A DNA stretch of 27,935 nucleotides from a virus. A program made the translations under genes and the position numbers. The notes beneath the pieces were generated by a model that saw only the letters and a list, made by a program, of their open reading frames with translations, searched no databases and was not told the DNA's origin. Location: the IMG/VR virus record IMGVR_UViG_3300032224_000728, positions 1-27,935 of that record. One strand, written 5' to 3'. Each line of letters opens with the position of its first letter. The first letter of the stretch is position 1. This document shows positions 1,697-27,441 of the stretch, one piece after another.

Positions 1697-2137
1697 TTAT
1701 CTAAAAACAGCAACGCCGTTATCAGTTGAATCAGTTGATGAACCAGCTACGTTTGAGGTTAAAAATGTAAACGCCGATGTTGTCAGCGTCCCTTGGCTTA
1801 AGCCGGCTATTGATCCGTTTCTAGTCGTAGTAACTGCTGAATAATTTGCATCAACCAATGCAGAAGCAAAATTAACTGTGTAGTTTCCTGTGCTATTTCT
1901 TGTGACACTTGAAACATTACCAGAGCCTGTTCTTGTGCCTGTTGCGCCAGCAAAACTTACCCAAGCACGGCAGGCGTATGCAGTAGCGGCAGAACCGTAG
2001 CCTGAATTGAATTTCAACACGCCAGCAGAGTCAAAACCCAAAGCTGTAGTGCCGTTGGTTTGGAAGTCCAAAGCTCCAGAGGTGTCAGCGGTCTGGACAA
2101 GACCCGCAGATGTTGAGGCGTTAATCGTTGTTGTCAT
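1697..2137 (-). CDS. Tail appendage / fibre-like virion protein
   Basis: A 146-residue Thr/Ser/Ala/Gly-rich beta-type protein (starts MTTTINASTSAGLVQTADTS). Residues 10-45 contain the TADTSGALDFQTNGTTAL segment that often follows or forms phage fibre shaft and head-domain junctions. The second half (from about residue 56) carries CRAWVSFAGATGTR and alternating strands with small residues. Low charge, no signal peptide and its place between two related appendage genes make it a structural protein, probably part of the receptor-binding apparatus. GAGGG, laid over the end of the upstream gene, serves as ribosome site. Confidence 0.75.
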   Translation of the reverse strand: MTTTINASTSAGLVQTADTSGALDFQTNGTTALGFDSAGVLKFNSGYGSAATAYACRAWVSFAGATGTRTGSGNVSSVTRNSTGNYTVNFASALVDANYSAVTTTRNGSIAGLSQGTLTTSAFTFLTSNVAGSSTDSTDNGVAVFR

Positions 2138-2140
2138 GTA

Positions 2141-2728
2141 TTAGCCCTCGTACAGAATGTTGATTGACCCAGCGTCGAAGGTGTCAGTGCCGTTTACAGT
2201 TGTGATACGGACAGCGGTAAGTGCGGCAGCAAGGGCAATAGAACCTCCACTTATAACAATTGTCGCGCCAGCACCTGATGAAATCATTCCAGTACCAACC
2301 CATGTATTTCCAGTTATATTTGTAAAAATAAACTGCCCTGTTCTAGCGTCTGCCGCGCCACCAAAATATGTACCAAATCCCGTTGTAAATGAAGCCGCAA
2401 CAATACCCGCTGCATTTTGTTGATAACTATATGAAGTTACATATCCTGTGGTTGTATAGGTAGTTGAACCTGTACCAAATTGAACTTGTACTGGTGAAGT
2501 GCTGTTAGTTGATACACCGTTAAACATCACAGTAATACGCTTCACCCAAGCAGGCAAGCCAGTAAAATCAATGCTTGTGCCGCTAGTAGATGCTTGAGCA
2601 GTCGCCAATGTATTTAACGACATTGTGCCGGTGGCTGCTTGGACTGAGATTGTGTTAGTACCAGCAACAGTAGGTACAGACATTGTTACCGCGCCGCTGG
2701 TGTCGCCTGATAGGACAAGAGAACTCAT
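2141..2728 (-). CDS. Tail fibre / virion appendage protein (paralogue of the 699-1220 gene)
   Basis: A 195-residue Ser/Thr/Gly-rich beta protein. From about residue 46 (ASTSGTSIDFTGLPAWVKRI) to TTYTTTGY and again over the last 60 residues (NITGNTWVGTGM to INILYEG) it is nearly the same as the 173-residue protein at 699-1220. The middle (about residues 95-130) is longer and unrelated. The N-terminus (MSSLVLSGDTSGAVTMSVPT) is also a frequent opening of phage fibre proteins. AAAGGAAA precedes the ATG. I infer a duplicated appendage subunit; which partner it attaches to cannot be told from sequence. Confidence 0.75.
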   Translation of the reverse strand: MSSLVLSGDTSGAVTMSVPTVAGTNTISVQAATGTMSLNTLATAQASTSGTSIDFTGLPAWVKRITVMFNGVSTNSTSPVQVQFGTGSTTYTTTGYVTSYSYQQNAAGIVAASFTTGFGTYFGGAADARTGQFIFTNITGNTWVGTGMISSGAGATIVISGGSIALAAALTAVRITTVNGTDTFDAGSINILYEG

Positions 2729-2737
2729 ATATTTCCT

Positions 2738-3469
2738 TTACAAAACAACCCAGCGCGAGCCGGAAGGTAAGGTGACAGTGATGCCGCCGTTGATCGTGAT
2801 CGGGCCAGTGCTCATTGCGTTAAAGCCGCTGCTGACAGTGTAGCTTGTGGTGACAGTTTTGCCGTTTTCCACAAACACTTGGTCAGCGCCGCCGCCTGTT
2901 GCGCCACCACCCAAAGCACCCCAAGCTGATGAATTGTAGCCCTCAAACTTGTTGGTCGTGGAGTTGAAACGAACCATGCCGGTAGTTGGCGTGGGGCGTT
3001 GCACAGTGGTGCCTACGTTCAGTTTGGCGGCTCCTGTGCTTGATAAGCTGAGCTGACCGCCAATTGTGACCGTGGTGGAGAACGACGCCGCGCCAGTGAC
3101 TGATAAGACACCAGTGACTGACAGCGTGGAAAACGAGCCGGTGTTGGGTGTTACGTTACCAATCGGTGGGGGCGACGCCAAAGACAGCGCATCCAAGGGA
3201 ATGGAGATGTTGTCCACGGTGTAGAGCAACACGTCCGCAGCGGTCTTGACCACAAATTTGTATACGGTGGTGTTGATCAACCAGATATTGGCTTGGCCGT
3301 AAGAGTCCAAGATGATCGGGTTGGTGTTGGCCGTACCAGCAGACGAGTCGGTATAGGTAGCGATAGGCGTCGTGGTGCCTCCCGCATACGTGTAGATTTT
3401 GCCGCCAACGAGAGGCAGGCCATCCGTTCCGAAGATCTGCTGTTTGGGGGAGGGGGTTAAACCAGCCAT
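2738..3469 (-). CDS. Tail fibre / tailspike-like protein with N-terminal head-binding-like domain
   Basis: A 243-residue protein. Residues 1-95 (MAGLTPSPKQQIFGTDGLPL, then GGKIYTYAGGTTTP, TYTDSSAGTANTNPIILDSY and GQANIWL) match the general pattern of the head-binding domain of P22-type tailspikes and related fibres, which docks the protein to the tail. Residues 100-165 are a repetitive Ser/Thr/Val shaft. The last 40 residues (SYTVSSGFNAMSTGPITING through SGSRWVVL) are shared with the C-terminus of the 786-residue fibre at 9008-11368. No enzymatic spike body is present, so it is a short fibre or adaptor and not a full depolymerase. GAGGT is its ribosome site, over the end of the upstream gene. 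Confidence 0.75.
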   Translation of the reverse strand: MAGLTPSPKQQIFGTDGLPLVGGKIYTYAGGTTTPIATYTDSSAGTANTNPIILDSYGQANIWLINTTVYKFVVKTAADVLLYTVDNISIPLDALSLASPPPIGNVTPNTGSFSTLSVTGVLSVTGAASFSTTVTIGGQLSLSSTGAAKLNVGTTVQRPTPTTGMVRFNSTTNKFEGYNSSAWGALGGGATGGGADQVFVENGKTVTTSYTVSSGFNAMSTGPITINGGITVTLPSGSRWVVL

Positions 3470-5867: not shown

Positions 5868-7621
5868 TACCAGTTACTCACGGTTGCGCCGGACTTGGTC
5901 GCCGCAGGCGCGGCAGTGGGTGCAGCTGTCGGCGTTGATTTTTTCAACAACTCACGGGTTGCAGGCGACAATTTCTTTTCAAAGTCTTTGCGGCCAGTAC
6001 CTGTTTCATATTGTTGAGCCAAACTGGTAAGTTGACCACCTAACAGTTCGCGGTATGTCGCAATAACTTGTCTTAACTGTTCAGGGCCGTTGGCCGATTT
6101 GATGTTGTCTGCTGCTTCTTTACGTTCGGTAACGCCGCCGCCGTTTTGAACGACAGCTTTTATAACCTCGGCAGCCACCAATTGCTTGGCCGCGTCAAAA
6201 CTGGTTGGTGCGGCAGAGCCAGTGGCTCTGGCAAATGCGTTGCCTGCGGCGTTCACAATTCGAATATCGGTGTTGGCCAAATCGCCAGCCAACTTATCCA
6301 TAGTTTCCAAGTGATTGAGCGCGGTGTTGTTGGCGGTCACACGTTTAGATGACGGGCCTGCACTAAAGTCTTTAAGCGCAGCGGTTTGCGATGCTACGTC
6401 TTGTTTACCTTGTACAACATTGGTAGCTGCTTGCGCCGCAGTTGTAGTGCCGCCGCCCATAGATATTTCTTGGGCGCGATTCAAAATTTGTGTTCTTGCA
6501 TCGGCGGCTTTTTTGCCCATACCTAACGGCGGCATAGCACCTGTTTGCAAATACACGTTGGCCATCATGTCAATGGTGTCAGGCTTAAAGCTACCTTGAT
6601 CGTAATCTTGCTTATATTTATCTTGAGCCAATTTAAGATGCGCGCGTTGAATGTTAAGTTCAGCTTGCGTTTTGTTAATTTGTGTATCGTAAATTTTACG
6701 ATTTGGATCGTTAGGTGGTAACGCGTCACGTTCTTTGATCAACTGAGCCAATTGACTTGGAGCGTTTTGAGTTTCTTTTTGAATCGCGCTTACATATTGC
6801 GCACGGCGCAAATCGCCTTCAGGCAATGCATCCAATTCAGCTTGCATTCTGGCCAAATTAGTAGGTGTAGCTGGCGCTTTGACATACACATTGCCTGATG
6901 CATCTGCAAGACCGACGTTAGGTATAACGTGAGGTGTTTGCAAAGTCTTGAGTTCAGCTTCTTTTGAAGACATTATTGCTTTTGCGCGGGGGTCTTTCAG
7001 TAATGAAAGTTCAAGAATATCTTTTTTCAACTGAGCAATTTGAGCGGAGCCTGATGCGGGTGCAGGCGCAAGGTTAGCTCCAACAGGGGGTACCACAGGG
7101 GCTATGGGAGTCACCACAGAAGCTACGGAGGGCGCCGCAGGAACAGGGGCAGGCGCAAGTTGGTTAGCCGCAGACGTATCTATGCCATAAGTGCCAGATC
7201 CTAATTTATTAACTGTTTCAGGCTGCTGGCGCATCATTGATGGCATTGCTGGTGCAGTAGGCGTGGCGCTAGGGTTTTGACGATTAACGTAATCTTCAAA
7301 TAATTTCTTGTCTTGAACTGCTTGCATGAGCGTGTAGCCGTGCTGCGCCACATTAGGATCAGGATGCGTTGCCATCATCTTGGCGGCTTCTTCAATATCC
7401 AATGGGCCGCCATTGTCGGCAATGGCTTTTTGCATTTTGTCTACATAATCCGCATTGCGTTGCAATTGTTGCAATTGCATGCCCGCAACTTTTTGCTGAG
7501 TTTCAGCGCCGCGCATTTGTTGTTGCGCGGCCAAAATGTTTTGCACTTGACCGTATTGAGCCAACGGATTATCAAGTTGAATCGGTTGAACGCCAAGTGA
7601 AATTCTGGGGTCGATAGCCAT
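5867..7621 (-). CDS. Internal virion / DNA-ejection protein, Gln/Ala-rich helical
   Basis: A 584-residue protein. The N-terminal 70 residues are helical and Gln-rich (QNILAAQQQMRGAETQQKVA), residues 125-200 are a Pro/Ala/Val low-complexity linker, residues 250-345 a long charged helix (LARMQAELDALPEGDLRRAQ, NKTQAELNIQRAHLKLAQDK), and the C-terminus ends in PTAAPTAAPAATKSG. This matches the style of injected head proteins (P22 gp20/gp16 type) and not of tail tube or enzymes. It lies between the gp7-like gene and the 797-residue ejection protein, with a TAATG overlap to the latter, suggesting a three-component ejection set. The role is inferred from composition and context. Confidence 0.65.
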   Translation of the reverse strand: MAIDPRISLGVQPIQLDNPLAQYGQVQNILAAQQQMRGAETQQKVAGMQLQQLQRNADYVDKMQKAIADNGGPLDIEEAAKMMATHPDPNVAQHGYTLMQAVQDKKLFEDYVNRQNPSATPTAPAMPSMMRQQPETVNKLGSGTYGIDTSAANQLAPAPVPAAPSVASVVTPIAPVVPPVGANLAPAPASGSAQIAQLKKDILELSLLKDPRAKAIMSSKEAELKTLQTPHVIPNVGLADASGNVYVKAPATPTNLARMQAELDALPEGDLRRAQYVSAIQKETQNAPSQLAQLIKERDALPPNDPNRKIYDTQINKTQAELNIQRAHLKLAQDKYKQDYDQGSFKPDTIDMMANVYLQTGAMPPLGMGKKAADARTQILNRAQEISMGGGTTTAAQAATNVVQGKQDVASQTAALKDFSAGPSSKRVTANNTALNHLETMDKLAGDLANTDIRIVNAAGNAFARATGSAAPTSFDAAKQLVAAEVIKAVVQNGGGVTERKEAADNIKSANGPEQLRQVIATYRELLGGQLTSLAQQYETGTGRKDFEKKLSPATRELLKKSTPTAAPTAAPAATKSGATVSNW

Positions 7622-22107: not shown

Positions 22108-22113
22108 GCGCGG

Positions 22114-22122
22114 AATATACCA
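22114..22122 (-). promoter_or_regulatory. Candidate extended -10 promoter of the late operon
   Basis: Read on the minus strand the bases are TGGTATATT, an extended -10 (TG, one base, then TATATT with five of six consensus bases). Transcription would begin about seven bases downstream, at or next to the A of the terminase small subunit ATG (22107). No good -35 lies at 16-18 bases upstream. A second, weaker pair, TTGACC (22177-22172) with TATTTC (22154-22149) at 17 bases, would give an ordinary leader. Both are by-eye calls. Confidence 0.35.
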
Positions 22123-22169
22123 AAGAAATGCTGGCGCAGGGAGTTCCAGAAATACAAAGTTAAGGAGCT

Positions 22170-22319
22170 ATGGTCAATCCAGTTGCTATGCACCAGCGAC
22201 CGGAATATATCAGGCTGTGGGTCATGTGGGCAATGTTGTCACTGGTTTGGAATTGGTTTTTAAAAATAAAAATTAAAAAAAATTTTGTTTGTGAACCCTC
22301 CGTCCACGTGGGCCTTTAG
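22170..22319 (+). CDS. Possible small membrane protein, 49 residues
   Basis: On the plus strand AAGGAG lies two bases before ATG at 22170, and the frame reads MVNPVAMHQRPEYIRLWVMW, then AMLSLVWNWFLKIKIKKNFV and CEPSVHVGL before TAG. Residues 15-31 are a Trp-rich hydrophobic segment flanked by a basic patch (KIKIKK), the classic signal of a small inner-membrane protein. The ribosome-site spacing is short for 22170; the in-frame ATG at 22188 would give a 43-residue version but lies far from it. The candidate overlaps a possible minus-strand promoter. It could be chance in an AT-rich spacer, so the call is tentative. Confidence 0.35.
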   Translation: MVNPVAMHQRPEYIRLWVMWAMLSLVWNWFLKIKIKKNFVCEPSVHVGL

Positions 22320-22376
22320 CGCCGGCCCTCCCTCCCCCCTCAAACCAAAATGAACATTACTGAATCCTTACAGCCA

Positions 22377-22548
22377 TAAGTTAGTGAGTGCTTACTTACA
22401 CCTGGTAAGTTAGTGGCCACTAACCTTTATCATTCTGCTAAGTGAGTAAGCACTAACTTAGAGAAGTAAGCACTTATTAACATGGCCATCGGCTGGTGGT
22501 TAGTGGCCACTAACATGGCCATTTGACCTAAGTTAGTGGCCACTAACC
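22377..22548. repeat. Operator/iteron-like array with TAAGTTAGTG half-sites and 16-bp palindromes
   Basis: The perfect palindrome GTTAGTGGCCACTAAC occurs at 22409-22424, 22499-22514 and 22532-22547. Two of these lie in an identical 20-mer, TAAGTTAGTGGCCACTAACC (22406-22425 and 22529-22548). The half-site TAAGTTAGTG also occurs at 22377-22386, and inverted (CACTAACTTA) at 22451-22460. A second word, AGTAAGCACT, is found at 22445-22454 and 22465-22474 and inverted at 22387-22396. Such dense two-fold symmetric sites are what dimeric DNA-binding proteins recognise: a repressor, an activator or a replication initiator. Which one cannot be told. Confidence 0.8.
22478..22543. repeat. 33-bp tandem direct repeat, two full units
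   Basis: Unit 1 is 22478-22510 and unit 2 is 22511-22543, with the first four bases of a third unit at 22544-22547. Each unit begins TAACATGGCCAT and ends GTTAGTGGCCAC; the nine bases between differ. 33 bp is close to three helical turns, so bound proteins would lie on the same face of the DNA. ATGGCCAT inside each unit (22482-22489, 22515-22522) is itself an 8-bp palindrome. Confidence 0.85.
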
Positions 22549-22553
22549 CAAAA

Positions 22554-22581
22554 AGTGTGGGTCATTTGGATGACCCACACT
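22554..22581 (-). terminator. Perfect 12-bp hairpin, terminator-like on the minus strand
   Basis: AGTGTGGGTCAT at 22554-22565 pairs with ATGACCCACACT at 22570-22581 around a 4-base loop. Read on the minus strand the stem is followed by a run of T (22554-22550), as in an intrinsic terminator. Such a terminator would stop leftward transcripts before the array and late promoter. The stem also contains the GTGGGTCAT word repeated further right, so it may instead be a protein site. Confidence 0.6.
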
Positions 22582-22607
22582 ATTTCCCTTTAAAATCATA
22601 GGCTTAC

Positions 22608-22800
22608 GTCATTTTTTGGGTTTTGTGGGTCATTTTTTCAAGAATTTGAGTCGCGGCCAAAACGGCGTGGCTCACATCCTACTGTATAGCTATTTAGTAT
22701 TACATTTTTAAAATCCTTTATATATACCCTAAAAAATGACAATATGACCCACAAATAAGCTCTAAGCCTCGTATTTATTGGTTTTTTTGTAGGTCATTTA
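22608..22800. repeat. TTTGTGGGTCAT repeat family, direct and inverted
   Basis: TTTGTGGGTCAT at 22622-22633 has an exact inverted copy, ATGACCCACAAA, at 22744-22755 and a one-mismatch direct copy, TTTGTAGGTCAT, at 22787-22798. GTCATTTTTT at 22608-22617 and the TCATTTTTT following the 22622 copy, with AAAAAATGAC at 22731-22740, extend the pattern. The hairpin at 22554-22581 carries the core GTGGGTCAT twice. This is a second family of sites, distinct from the TGGCCA palindromes. Confidence 0.7.
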
Positions 22801-22928
22801 AACCGGTGCACGGTTGCCCACACAATACCTAAACTGCCTACAAAAAATAGGGTAAACACCTATATATTTATGCAAGTAAATGCCTTACGCTATCAGTGCG
22901 CGCAAGCGCAGCAAAACTTATTCTCAAA

Positions 22929-22952
22929 TCAACTAAAGGAAAGTAAAAAATG
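22929..22952 (+). promoter_or_regulatory. Early leader with ribosome binding site, copy 1
   Basis: TAAAGGAAAGTAAAAAATG (22934-22952) is identical to the leader of the next gene (23240-23258). Both are preceded by ATCAACTAAA, which in the second copy contains the stop codon of the 95-residue gene. AAAGGAAAG is the ribosome binding site, with an A-rich unstructured spacer that favours strong translation. Confidence 0.8.
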
Positions 22953-23237
22953 ATAACCCTTAAATTTAACACCGGCCGCGAATACACCAAGTATGGCCAG
23001 CGCATTGCAGCCACGCAATTAAAAACCGGCCAAATTATTTTGGTCGATATCGACCGGCGCGTTGACGCCATGTTGCCCGCAAACGTGGAATTCACACAGG
23101 CTGACATTATGTGTTTTTACGATATCGGCTGCTATATATACCCAAATGATATCGGCATGTCATATGTCGATTATTACGTGTTGGTCGAGCAGCTGCGCGC
23201 GCTGGCCAATACTTGGACACATAATTCAATCAACTAA
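22950..23237 (+). CDS. First gene of early operon, unknown function
   Basis: A 95-residue protein (MITLKFNTGREYTKYGQRIA) with alternating short strands (TGQIILVDIDRRVDAML) and a Tyr-rich middle (CFYDIGCYIYPNDIGMSYVD, YYVLVEQLRALANTWTHN). It is acidic with no recognised motif. It leads the rightward operon that starts next to the operator array, with a strong AAAGGAAAG ribosome site. The gene is bracketed by two copies of the same leader sequence, which suggests duplication or cassette insertion. Proteins in this position are often host take-over or anti-defence factors, but nothing here proves that. Confidence 0.8.
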   Translation: MITLKFNTGREYTKYGQRIAATQLKTGQIILVDIDRRVDAMLPANVEFTQADIMCFYDIGCYIYPNDIGMSYVDYYVLVEQLRALANTWTHNSIN

Positions 23238-24654: not shown

Positions 24655-24866
24655 TTCACCCACTATTAGCCCAGGCGCTCGCGCCTTGGACACCACCGCC
24701 AGCCCCTACACCGTGCAACCTAGTAACGCGCGCGCTTATTATGGGGCTCACCGCGCCGGACGCCGAGCGCGCGCAACAGTGCGCCGACATGGCCGAACAT
24801 TGGGCGCAGGGGCTCACCGACGCCGAGGTCGAAGCATGTAAAGCGGAGGCCATGCAATATGTCTAA
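24651..24866 (+). CDS. Small acidic protein, 71 residues, unknown
   Basis: Reads MIHPLLAQALAPWTPPPAPT, then PCNLVTRALIMGLTAPDAER, AQQCADMAEHWAQGLTDAEV and EACKAEAMQYV. A Pro-rich N-terminus precedes two helices with C46- and C64-type single cysteines (AQQCAD, EACKAE). The LTDAEVEACKAEA end resembles the tail of small phage accessory proteins. It is coupled to both neighbours by overlap (ATGA on the left, eight bases on the right). Function unknown. Confidence 0.7.
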   Translation: MIHPLLAQALAPWTPPPAPTPCNLVTRALIMGLTAPDAERAQQCADMAEHWAQGLTDAEVEACKAEAMQYV

Positions 24867-25083
24867 CCTCGCTGACTTTTGCGCCACGCCGCGCACAATG
24901 TACGAACTCGAAGCCGAAGGGTTTACCCGCGACCAAGTCTATGGGGCAGTGAAACGGGGCGAGCTAGTCAATCAAAACCGCAAGGACGCCTGGGGGCGCA
25001 CAAGGCGCGGCGCTGGCCTGTTCACCGTGGCCGCACCGGCACCGGTTTATGACGCTGCGGCACTGGTGGACGCATGGCGCTAA
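24859..25083 (+). CDS. Small winged-helix-like DNA-binding protein candidate
   Basis: A 74-residue protein starting MSNLADFCATPRTMYELEAE. Residues 10-36 (TPRTMYELEAEGFTRDQVYG, AVKRGEL) read as helix, turn and recognition helix, followed by a basic wing (NQNRKDAWGRTRRGAGLFTV) of two strands. This is the shape of small winged helix-turn-helix domains. It is the best candidate in the window for a DNA-binding regulator, and could act on the operator array at 22.4 kb, but no sequence feature links them directly. The end is Ala-rich. Overlaps the preceding gene by eight bases. Confidence 0.7.
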   Translation: MSNLADFCATPRTMYELEAEGFTRDQVYGAVKRGELVNQNRKDAWGRTRRGAGLFTVAAPAPVYDAAALVDAWR

Positions 25084-25158: not shown

Positions 25159-25178
25159 CCCTTACGGGGGCTTTTTTT
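25153..25178 (+). terminator. Intrinsic terminator of the early operon
   Basis: AAGCCCCC (25153-25160) pairs with GGGGGCTT (25166-25173) around a 5-base loop, followed by T at 25172-25178. It ends the rightward operon. On the minus strand there is no T-run after the stem, so it would not stop leftward transcripts from the primase-helicase as efficiently. The T-run overlaps the stop codon of that gene. Confidence 0.85.
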
Positions 25179-27441
25179 ATGCTTCGACCATGTCGCGGAG
25201 GTCGGACTTACTGACACGCGTGTGCTCAGGGGCGCAAAATATATGCTTCTTGGTGCTATGGGTGCGCGACGCGACGCGCCCCATGTCTACCCAATTGGCC
25301 TCTTTAAGCGCGTGTAAGAGCGCGGCCTGCACAATCTTGACGCCAGCGGGTGCCATGCCTTGCAGGCGGTCGCAAACCCCGTGGAAGGGGGACGCAATGA
25401 CACCGCGCGAGAATTCACCGACGCGCCGGCGTAGCTGATCGACAAGGAACGACTCGGCCGTGCTCATGCCGTGCTCGACCATGATGGCCTTGGCCTCGGT
25501 AAGCGGTGGGGGCGCGTTGGGGTTCCAGTCGGACACATCGCGTGTGTGGAGGTAATGGGCGACGGCCTCGAAGCCGCCTCGGTGCTGGTACCAATTCCAC
25601 AAGCTCACCGCGTGAGCCTCTGATAGCTTAGGCGCTGCGCTCCATAGGACGAACCAACGGCGATCCTCTGAGGGTAACGAGATGGCCACACGCTCATTGG
25701 AAAACGCAATGACGAACACGCGGTTGAGCGCCATGTAGGGGTGCAAGCCCTTACGGTTGACCATGAGAAGCTCAGGGGGCGCTGCGATGATGGGTTTGAG
25801 GGTGTTTTCCAACGCGCGCCGGTCTTTGGCCTCTGCTTGGCGTAGCTCGGCGATTTCCATCACTTCGCACTCGAGCGCGTAGCCCCACTGGGAGTTAAGG
25901 TCTTCGTTTTTGACTAGCGAGCAATTGGCCTTGGCGTCGCCGCCGATCGCCCAAAAGAACGGGGCGAAGAGGGTGTCCTTGCCGCTGCCATGGTTGCCGC
26001 CCATGAGGATGGCGTGGTTGATCTTATGGGCGGGGAATTGCACCTTATGCGCCAACGCGTTAAGCAGGTGCTCACGCTCGAAGGGCTCGGGCACCATGCG
26101 CTCGACGTGCTCCAGCCATTTGGTGACGTCACCGGCCTGCGCCTTGGGGCGCGCGTCGCGCCAGCGGTTGCCGTAGACCAAGCCGTCGCGGGCGACCAAG
26201 ATGGACGCGCCAGCGGCGTAGGTGATGCCGGCCAACGCCTTGGCGCCCTTGGCTTGGCGGTTTTCGTCAAAGCAATGCGACGCCTCAATCCGACGCTTGG
26301 CGTTGTGGATCGACTTGCAGTCTATGTGCCGGAATAAGGCGTTGAAGGTGCTGCGGGTCACTTCGCGCCGGTCGGTCAAATCAAAATAACCATCGTCTGC
26401 TTGGACATAGGCGAACCGTTCGTACCATTCGGCCTTCTCAATACGGCCAAGCTCTTTGCGCTCGACCTCGGCGATGACGCGAGCGGCCTCGTTGGGGTAC
26501 TCGACCGTGGGGGTGAGCTTGGACAGGGCTGAATCCATCGCCTGCGCCAGCAATTCCTCACGCAGGCCAGGGGTGTGTGCTGGCCCGCCATTGTCGGCGA
26601 CCCACTGAAGGAACATGCGCGAATCGAAGTCCACGCAATGCGAATGCAGGCAACAGTAGGCGCGGTTGGCGGGCATGTAACGGCCTTCGGGGTTGCCGTC
26701 GCTGTGCTCGGCACCGTTGGGACAAATGACGCCAGCCCAACCCTCGCCGTTGGGTCGGGAAAGGAGCAGACCCTGCTCGGACAGCCACGCCATGACGTCG
26801 TCGGCACCGTCGTCGGACAGTCTGATGGGGCGCAGGGTGAGCGAATCGGCCTCGACGGGCGTCACGCCAAGCGCGGCGCAGATGTCGGGCAGGCTGTACT
26901 CGCGCTCGGGGTGGAACTCGACTAAGCGGGACTCAAAATGGTTGCGGTCGGGTTTTAGATTTACGCTCCCTGGGAGCCGGAAATTGCGAACAGGGTTGCA
27001 GGCACCAGGGTCGGTGTAACCCGCGTCGGCGATCGCTTTGATGGCTGCGCTGAATTCGGCCTTGGTCGGCTGGTCGCTGAAGGCGTAGCCCCACTGGAAT
27101 GAACCCTCGGACGTCTCCATGATCCACGTGGGCTCAAGCGGAGGCGTCTTGGACTTGGTGCCAATGTCGTCAAGCATCATCACAAGGATGTACTCGCAAT
27201 TGGCGGCGGACGCTGACACGCGGCCATCGGCAAAGCGGTCGATGATGAAGCTGGCGGTGTTGCCGTACCACGCTTCGTTGGCCTTGGTGCCCTTGCTGGG
27301 CAGGTACGCTGGCCACGTGCACTTGACTGCACCATCGGCGTGGAGTTGAATCTTGCCGTCTTTTAATTGTGGTTTTTGACGCACAATAAGTGCGGTTTCG
27401 CCGGTTGGGGCGAGTTTTGTGATAAAGTCCAAAAATTCCAA
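25177..27441 (-). CDS. Primase-helicase (RepB-like primase, DUF5906-type helicase)
   Basis: A 754-residue replication protein. The N-terminal 180 residues look like an archaeo-eukaryotic-type primase (ANCEYILVMMLDDIG with D91/D92; NPVRNFRLPGSVNLKP at 149-164). A zinc-like site follows (VICPNGAEH at 238-246, then YCCLHSHC near 262-269). The helicase part has Walker A GGNHGSGKDT (481-490), a Walker B-like ECEVMEIAEL (about 524-533) and the conserved HPYMALNRVFVIAFSNERVA and SLPSEDRRWFVLW. It should unwind and prime DNA at the fork, working with the polymerase encoded upstream. The start is TTG at 27441, chosen because AAGGGAG lies seven bases upstream and no early in-frame ATG exists. GC-rich relative to the late operon. 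Confidence 0.9.
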   Translation of the reverse strand: MEFLDFITKLAPTGETALIVRQKPQLKDGKIQLHADGAVKCTWPAYLPSKGTKANEAWYGNTASFIIDRFADGRVSASAANCEYILVMMLDDIGTKSKTPPLEPTWIMETSEGSFQWGYAFSDQPTKAEFSAAIKAIADAGYTDPGACNPVRNFRLPGSVNLKPDRNHFESRLVEFHPEREYSLPDICAALGVTPVEADSLTLRPIRLSDDGADDVMAWLSEQGLLLSRPNGEGWAGVICPNGAEHSDGNPEGRYMPANRAYCCLHSHCVDFDSRMFLQWVADNGGPAHTPGLREELLAQAMDSALSKLTPTVEYPNEAARVIAEVERKELGRIEKAEWYERFAYVQADDGYFDLTDRREVTRSTFNALFRHIDCKSIHNAKRRIEASHCFDENRQAKGAKALAGITYAAGASILVARDGLVYGNRWRDARPKAQAGDVTKWLEHVERMVPEPFEREHLLNALAHKVQFPAHKINHAILMGGNHGSGKDTLFAPFFWAIGGDAKANCSLVKNEDLNSQWGYALECEVMEIAELRQAEAKDRRALENTLKPIIAAPPELLMVNRKGLHPYMALNRVFVIAFSNERVAISLPSEDRRWFVLWSAAPKLSEAHAVSLWNWYQHRGGFEAVAHYLHTRDVSDWNPNAPPPLTEAKAIMVEHGMSTAESFLVDQLRRRVGEFSRGVIASPFHGVCDRLQGMAPAGVKIVQAALLHALKEANWVDMGRVASRTHSTKKHIFCAPEHTRVSKSDLRDMVEA

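Follow-up and report, generated by a model that had tools for sequence, protein, structure and literature searches.

The window analysed here, the whole 27,935-nucleotide viral record IMGVR_UViG_3300032224_000728, belongs to a podovirus-like phage whose structural genes run leftward from a TerS-like ORF and TerL (21683-20160) and whose small early ORFs run rightward from 22950. Two more genes point leftward, a DUF5906 primase (25177-27441) and a family-A polymerase of which the window includes the end. A family search with the TerS-like ORF gave no match over the cut-off. A complete circular relative of 34.5 kb (G003) contains DUF2815-, DUF2800-, VRR-NUC-, and SNF2-like ORFs (names by eye), and inspection by eye recognised no integrase or repressor in it.

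The row of repeats described here is placed between the leftward TerS (22107-21658) and the rightward ORF at 22950-23237 (Table 1). A perfect 16-bp palindrome, GTTAGTGGCCACTAAC, has only 3 copies in the whole record, at 22409, 22499, and 22532, and 2 of them lie inside an identical 20-mer that starts at 22406 and 22529. The half-site TAAGTTAGTG is found at 22377, 22406, and 22529 on the forward strand and at 22451 on the reverse, and the word AGTAAGCACT at 22445 and 22465 (forward) and 22387 (reverse). A sequence-only reading of this DNA had listed all of these elements, and each was confirmed at its position, the palindromes far above chance. That reading had also listed a 33-bp tandem repeat at 22478-22543; the position holds, but the 2 units (22478-22510 and 22511-22543) are identical at just 25 of 33 bases, and they are 2 adjacent palindromes with similar spacers rather than a true tandem. 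Half-sites, AGTAAGCACT words, and 33-bp repeat are thus all parts of one row of 5, perhaps 6, dyad sites of the form GTTAGTGnnCACTAAC.

The in-register sites start at 22380, 22409, 22442, 22499, and 22532, with spacings of 29, 33, 57, and 33. Within the intergenic stretch 22108-22949, 5 sites have 3 or fewer mismatches; 2,000 first-order shuffles of the same stretch averaged 0.044 such sites and never had more than 1. The degenerate sixth site has more than 4 mismatches and was hence left out of site scoring; it was read from the sequence, and its register matches a site conserved in 2 relatives (L048 and L123).

Table 1. Positions of genes, repeats, and promoter-like elements between the late and early operons of the window.
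Feature	Position	Strand	Description
TerS-like ORF, 149 aa	21658..22107	-	First leftward late-operon gene; assigned by position before TerL
Extended -10 TGGTATATT	22114-22122	-	Begins 15 b before the TerS start codon
Promoter-like site toward TerS	22204..22233	-	TTGCCC - 18 - TATATT, extended -10 TGaTATATT; consensus match alone, below the shuffle mean for the region
DnaA-box-like 9-mer pair TGTGGGTCA TGTGGGCAA	22216..22234		Adjoins the late promoter-like site
AT-rich tract, 94% A+T	22253..22286		Also in relatives with and without the array
GC-rich element ending in C-tract	22283..22341		Between TerS and array; in relatives with and without the array
Array site 1	22380..22395		GTTAGTGAGTGCTTAC, imperfect palindrome
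Array site 2	22409..22424		Perfect palindrome GTTAGTGGCCACTAAC
Array site 3	22442..22457		GTGAGTAAGCACTAAC
Degenerate sixth site	22466..22481		GTAAGCACTTATTAAC
Array site 4	22499..22514		Perfect palindrome
Array site 5	22532..22547		Perfect palindrome
Inverted 9-mer pair AGTGTGGGTCAT TTGG ATGACCCACACT	22554..22581		
Further 9-mers GTGGGTCAT / ATGACCCAC / GTAGGTCAT around TACTGTATAGCTATTTAGTATTACATTTTT	22622..22800		Found in array-bearing and array-free relatives
First rightward early ORF, 95 aa	22950..23237	+	

AT-rich DNA lies on both sides of the array. The 94% A+T tract about 90 bases to its left, noticed already in the sequence-only reading, is separated from it by the GC-rich element. DnaA-box-like 9-mers form a second repeat family (22216-22234, 22554-22581, and 22622-22800), which takes forms such as TGTGGACAA, TGTAGGCAA, and TGTAAGCAA in relatives; the letters differ between genomes, and both array-bearing and array-free relatives carry such 9-mers, including those to the right of the array. 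An Rfam scan returned nothing near any gathering score, and near TerS in the window there was no tRNA or structured leader, the fold being worse than that of shuffles. In some relatives, tRNA-Met genes lie directly upstream of TerS (L051:11445-11519 and L081:9922-9996). A TGnTATATT-like word occurs within about 260 bases upstream of TerS in 43 of 73 loci compared, often 12 to 16 bases before the start codon, a placement that would give a leaderless late message.

Conservation of the array among relatives

Relatives were gathered by a palindrome scan of viral contigs and a search for relatives of the primase, and the kilobase upstream of TerS was compared across 73 distinct loci. An array of 3 to 8 sites occupies the same place in 48 of these, most of which hold 5 to 8, a frequency that is biased because the loci were partly collected via the palindrome itself. 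The other 25 have fewer than 3 sites and are referred to as array-free. Syntenic relatives without the palindrome array, an observation that the sequence-only reading had named as counting against its proposal, therefore do occur, and the array cannot be essential in every member. Four array-free loci have a TerS 88% to 92% identical to that of the window.

Where the array is present, it is strongly constrained. Across 284 sites, most core positions are 95% to 100% conserved (upper bounds, since sites were picked by similarity to the consensus), while the spacers and the 2 bases at the center vary freely. Many dyads also have an extended AA..TT flank. Center-to-center spacings fall into 3 classes of 23-25, 28-29, and 31-34 bp with no helical phase (R 0.10-0.18), and each long array-bearing record has one array. 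Mapped on a 68-row TerL tree, presence or absence of the array takes 5 changes, compared with about 18 for shuffled labels, which indicates that the array is mostly inherited and occasionally lost. The array is a real, evolutionarily conserved feature. In 2 genomes (L057 and L092), the same 15-base spacer between 2 array sites appears at the same place, about 170 to 230 bases upstream of TerS, in opposite orientations (TTGTCAAATTTATAT and ATATAGATTTGACAA), as is expected if short segments between inverted repeats flip.

An exchangeable slot and the search for a partner gene

The palindrome is also found outside the window's lineage, where arrays of this consensus, many of them accompanied by a C-tract, belong to phages whose terminases are unrelated. 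A looser pattern of 2 adjacent sites matched at least 119 viral stretches; among the matches listed, most were relatives of the window phage, with TerL 61% to 97% identical and up to 8 sites upstream of TerS. In a second lineage (L246, L201, and L227), sites lie between a C-tract and a different TerS, and the terminase does not match that of the window. Two or more sites were found near other terminase genes in L254, L200, L209, and L211, the last 3 having arrays or site pairs near TerL. Just downstream of the array in L211 is a terminase-like ORF with an intein-like start by eye (2097-3059). In a further set (L167/L191, L177/L192, L184/L223, L172, L176, L166, and L199), sites occur elsewhere or in unplaced fragments. 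Three phage contigs of up to 97 kb (L167, L191, and L205) have sites between 2 small GcrA-like helix-turn-helix genes.

A rough calculation with an assumed collection size puts the number of chance pairs at well under one. In genome contigs, pairs were mainly actinobacterial, often about 24 bp apart, and in several inspected cases they lay between a TetR-type gene and its divergent neighbor; one phage contig of a betaproteobacterial MAG (L328) also carries a pair. Scanning with a second, GTGAGTG-type pattern added few new carriers. A blastn search of the array against isolated phages and plasmids gave no match, and literature searches for the motif and for such arrays returned nothing on point. 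CIRCE (TTAGCACTC-N9-GAGTGCTAA) was set aside because its arm spacing differs.

In the second lineage, we compared 80 relatives of the L246 terminase and scored 55 loci in 5 classes by simple word counts. The C-tract before TerS is kept in most members, and the DNA beyond it differs: the slot holds GTTAGTG arrays (5 of 55 loci), TTATCCACA-type DnaA boxes (17 of 55), GC-rich 8-9-mers, AGGGTTTACCC repeats, or nothing clear, and the array type switches at least 20 times on the TerL tree of the scored loci. The C-tract itself, CCCCCTCCCCCCCCAT, is conserved upstream of TerS in most of this large uncultivated lineage (L341-L420), whose TerL is less than 60% identical to that of any isolate in the collection searched. 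Clusters of TTATCCACA-type DnaA boxes lie beside phage terminase genes in L349, L370, L395, L389, and L391. In the window's own lineage, array-free loci have a mean of 1.65 DnaA-box-like 9-mers in the slot compared with 0.06 in array-bearing ones (Fisher p 2.5e-5, a statistic that ignores kinship). The array is thus one occupant of a slot in which it is swapped for other repeat arrays, DnaA boxes among them.

Binding-site arrays normally travel with the gene for the protein that binds them, and no such gene was apparent here. None of the early-operon ORFs tracks the array across relatives, including the 2 that had been put forward as binders (24859-25083 and 22950-23237), and phage-wide co-occurrence over 16 long records found none either. 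A search of 25 records, either array-bearing or related and in part fragmentary, found no TetR_N protein. A DnaA C-terminal domain was present in MW202483 alone; in this distant relative (L125), the small protein with this domain (7083-7379) adjoins the primase. DUF7227/GP88 genes lie near arrays in 3 groups and do not track the array. Neither a terminase type nor a chromosomal regulon tracking it was found.

Possible functions: origin, operator, or packaging site

Given that unrelated viruses carry this row of 16-letter dyad words and that other repeats sometimes take its place, it is probably a replication start site or a gene switch. The sequence-only reading had offered an iteron origin or a cooperative switch. 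The conservation described above gives good support to an array of dyads that a protein would bind in the region controlling late and early genes; a cooperative switch with all sites on one face of the helix is not supported, as the spacings lack helical phase and the promoter-like sites of the window are about 150 bases or more away. We favor, with a probability of about 0.4, a set of putative binding sites for a dimeric protein that most likely form an origin-type initiator (iteron) array. A dimer would bind each dyad site, and the array would be the initiator-binding part of the phage replication origin. Once bound, it may recruit or position the replication machinery, which in this phage would be the DUF5906 primase and family-A polymerase, and the flanking AT-rich DNA would open. 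The binding protein may be phage-encoded or recruited.

The lean toward an origin comes from the swapping with DnaA-box arrays, which are themselves putative origins and serve here as an analogy, and from a codon-position skew test. The AT-rich DNA at the sides of the array and its distance from promoter-like sites also speak for an origin. On a scaled map with the array near 33.1 kb, the fourfold-site G/C skew of 14 relatives is best fitted by an origin at 33-35 kb, no more than about 2 kb from the array, with the best terminus just about 4 kb away. When replication and late genes on the same strand were compared, the skew difference had the sign that an intervening origin would produce in 15 of 15 genomes. 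This is weak evidence, since the fit draws on few gene families, is partly driven by the terminase, and is confounded with gene direction and class. Plain cumulative GC skew, one of the checks that the sequence-only reading had proposed, makes no clear turn at the array. Several dyad iterons with constrained sequence are present, as in an iteron origin of the lambda type; no linked cognate initiator gene was found in the early operon or across the 16 long records, and there are no TTATCCACA-type DnaA boxes within the array, the DnaA-box-like 9-mers of array-bearing genomes lying outside it. If the array is part of an origin, its absence from 25 of 73 syntenic loci means that it is an optional part.

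The phage lambda origin, where iterons at intervals of about 20-24 are bound by the O protein, resembles the array in having several closely spaced dyad sites of about the same size, with AT-rich DNA nearby. It differs in that no O-like initiator gene was found and the array does not lie inside an initiator gene, and also in that the array is optional and exchangeable, has spacings of 23-34 bp, and is separated from the AT-rich tract by a GC-rich element. In the L246 lineage, the slot can instead hold bacterial DnaA-box clusters, but the array site is a 16-bp palindrome unrelated to TTATCCACA.

The alternative that survives best is an operator array, in which a dimeric regulator on several sites would silence or activate the divergent late and early promoters. 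Dimeric regulators usually bind palindromes, the array sits between divergent operons much as the sites of lambda OR/OL do, and the actinobacterial TetR-type operators (GTKAGTGnnCACTMAC pairs) have the same palindrome consensus and the 23-24 bp spacing class. Those operators, unlike the phage arrays, usually have 2 sites and lie beside a TetR-like gene, and the 25 phage records searched lack TetR_N. The candidate late -10 elements are about 160 bases or more from the array and a consensus scan predicted no promoter inside it, so that the overlap with a recognised promoter seen at OR/OL is missing here, as are a repressor or other nearby cognate regulator gene that tracks the array and the helical phasing; the 5 to 8 sites also set the array apart from OR/OL. 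We consider an operator somewhat less likely than an origin.

A broader proposal, which we regard as unlikely, is a mobile non-coding control cassette. Binding-site arrays of several types would swap, without the gene for the binding protein, into a single slot next to packaging genes in unrelated, uncultivated phages, and a protein whose gene is not adjacent would read them as a shared recognition code.

Packaging offers a different explanation for the position of the array. In this case, it would be a pac or cosB-like site read by TerS, cutting or loading would take place at the C/G-tract, and the likeness to SPP1 pac and lambda cosB lies in multiple repeats close to the small terminase gene. 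Arrays or pairs stand beside terminase genes in unrelated phages, namely the window's lineage, L246/L201/L227, L254, and, near TerL, L200, L209, and L211. Most of the L246 lineage retains the C-tract ahead of TerS, and several contigs of that lineage begin within about 20 bases of the G-tract, although a contig can also end where conserved DNA gives way to variable DNA. Against packaging, the array does not follow TerS type as a pac or cosB site would: genomes whose TerS proteins are about 90% identical may have it or lack it, the array type changes at least 20 times in the L246 lineage, and one palindrome would have to serve as the target of TerS proteins that are unrelated. We therefore judge a packaging site improbable.

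Less probable again are sites of a host regulator recruited by phages. A motif common to unrelated phages without an obvious common gene is what such recruitment would leave, but hardly any copies of the motif turned up in 150 genomes from one bacterial order, chosen because a MAG of that order contains a related phage contig, although the host may belong elsewhere (6 sites in 5 other genomes, compared with about 17 hits for a reversed control pattern), and the whole-collection pair scan returned, among the matches listed, almost nothing other than actinobacterial pairs and the MAG phage contig. A selfish or neutral expansion of repeats without function in a hypervariable intergenic slot would fit the varying spacers, the one spacer found in both orientations, and the different repeat types in the slot, but it is very unlikely given that the core hardly varies over 284 sites and distant relatives keep the consensus, although spacers and central bases change.

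One palindrome code thus recurs in unrelated uncultivated phages, with no partner gene found, and DnaA boxes or other repeats fill its slot where it is missing. If the origin or control reading is right, the array would mark the control or replication center of 2 common phage lineages, neither of which has a close cultured member in the collection searched, and it would provide a DNA bait for fishing out the protein that binds it.
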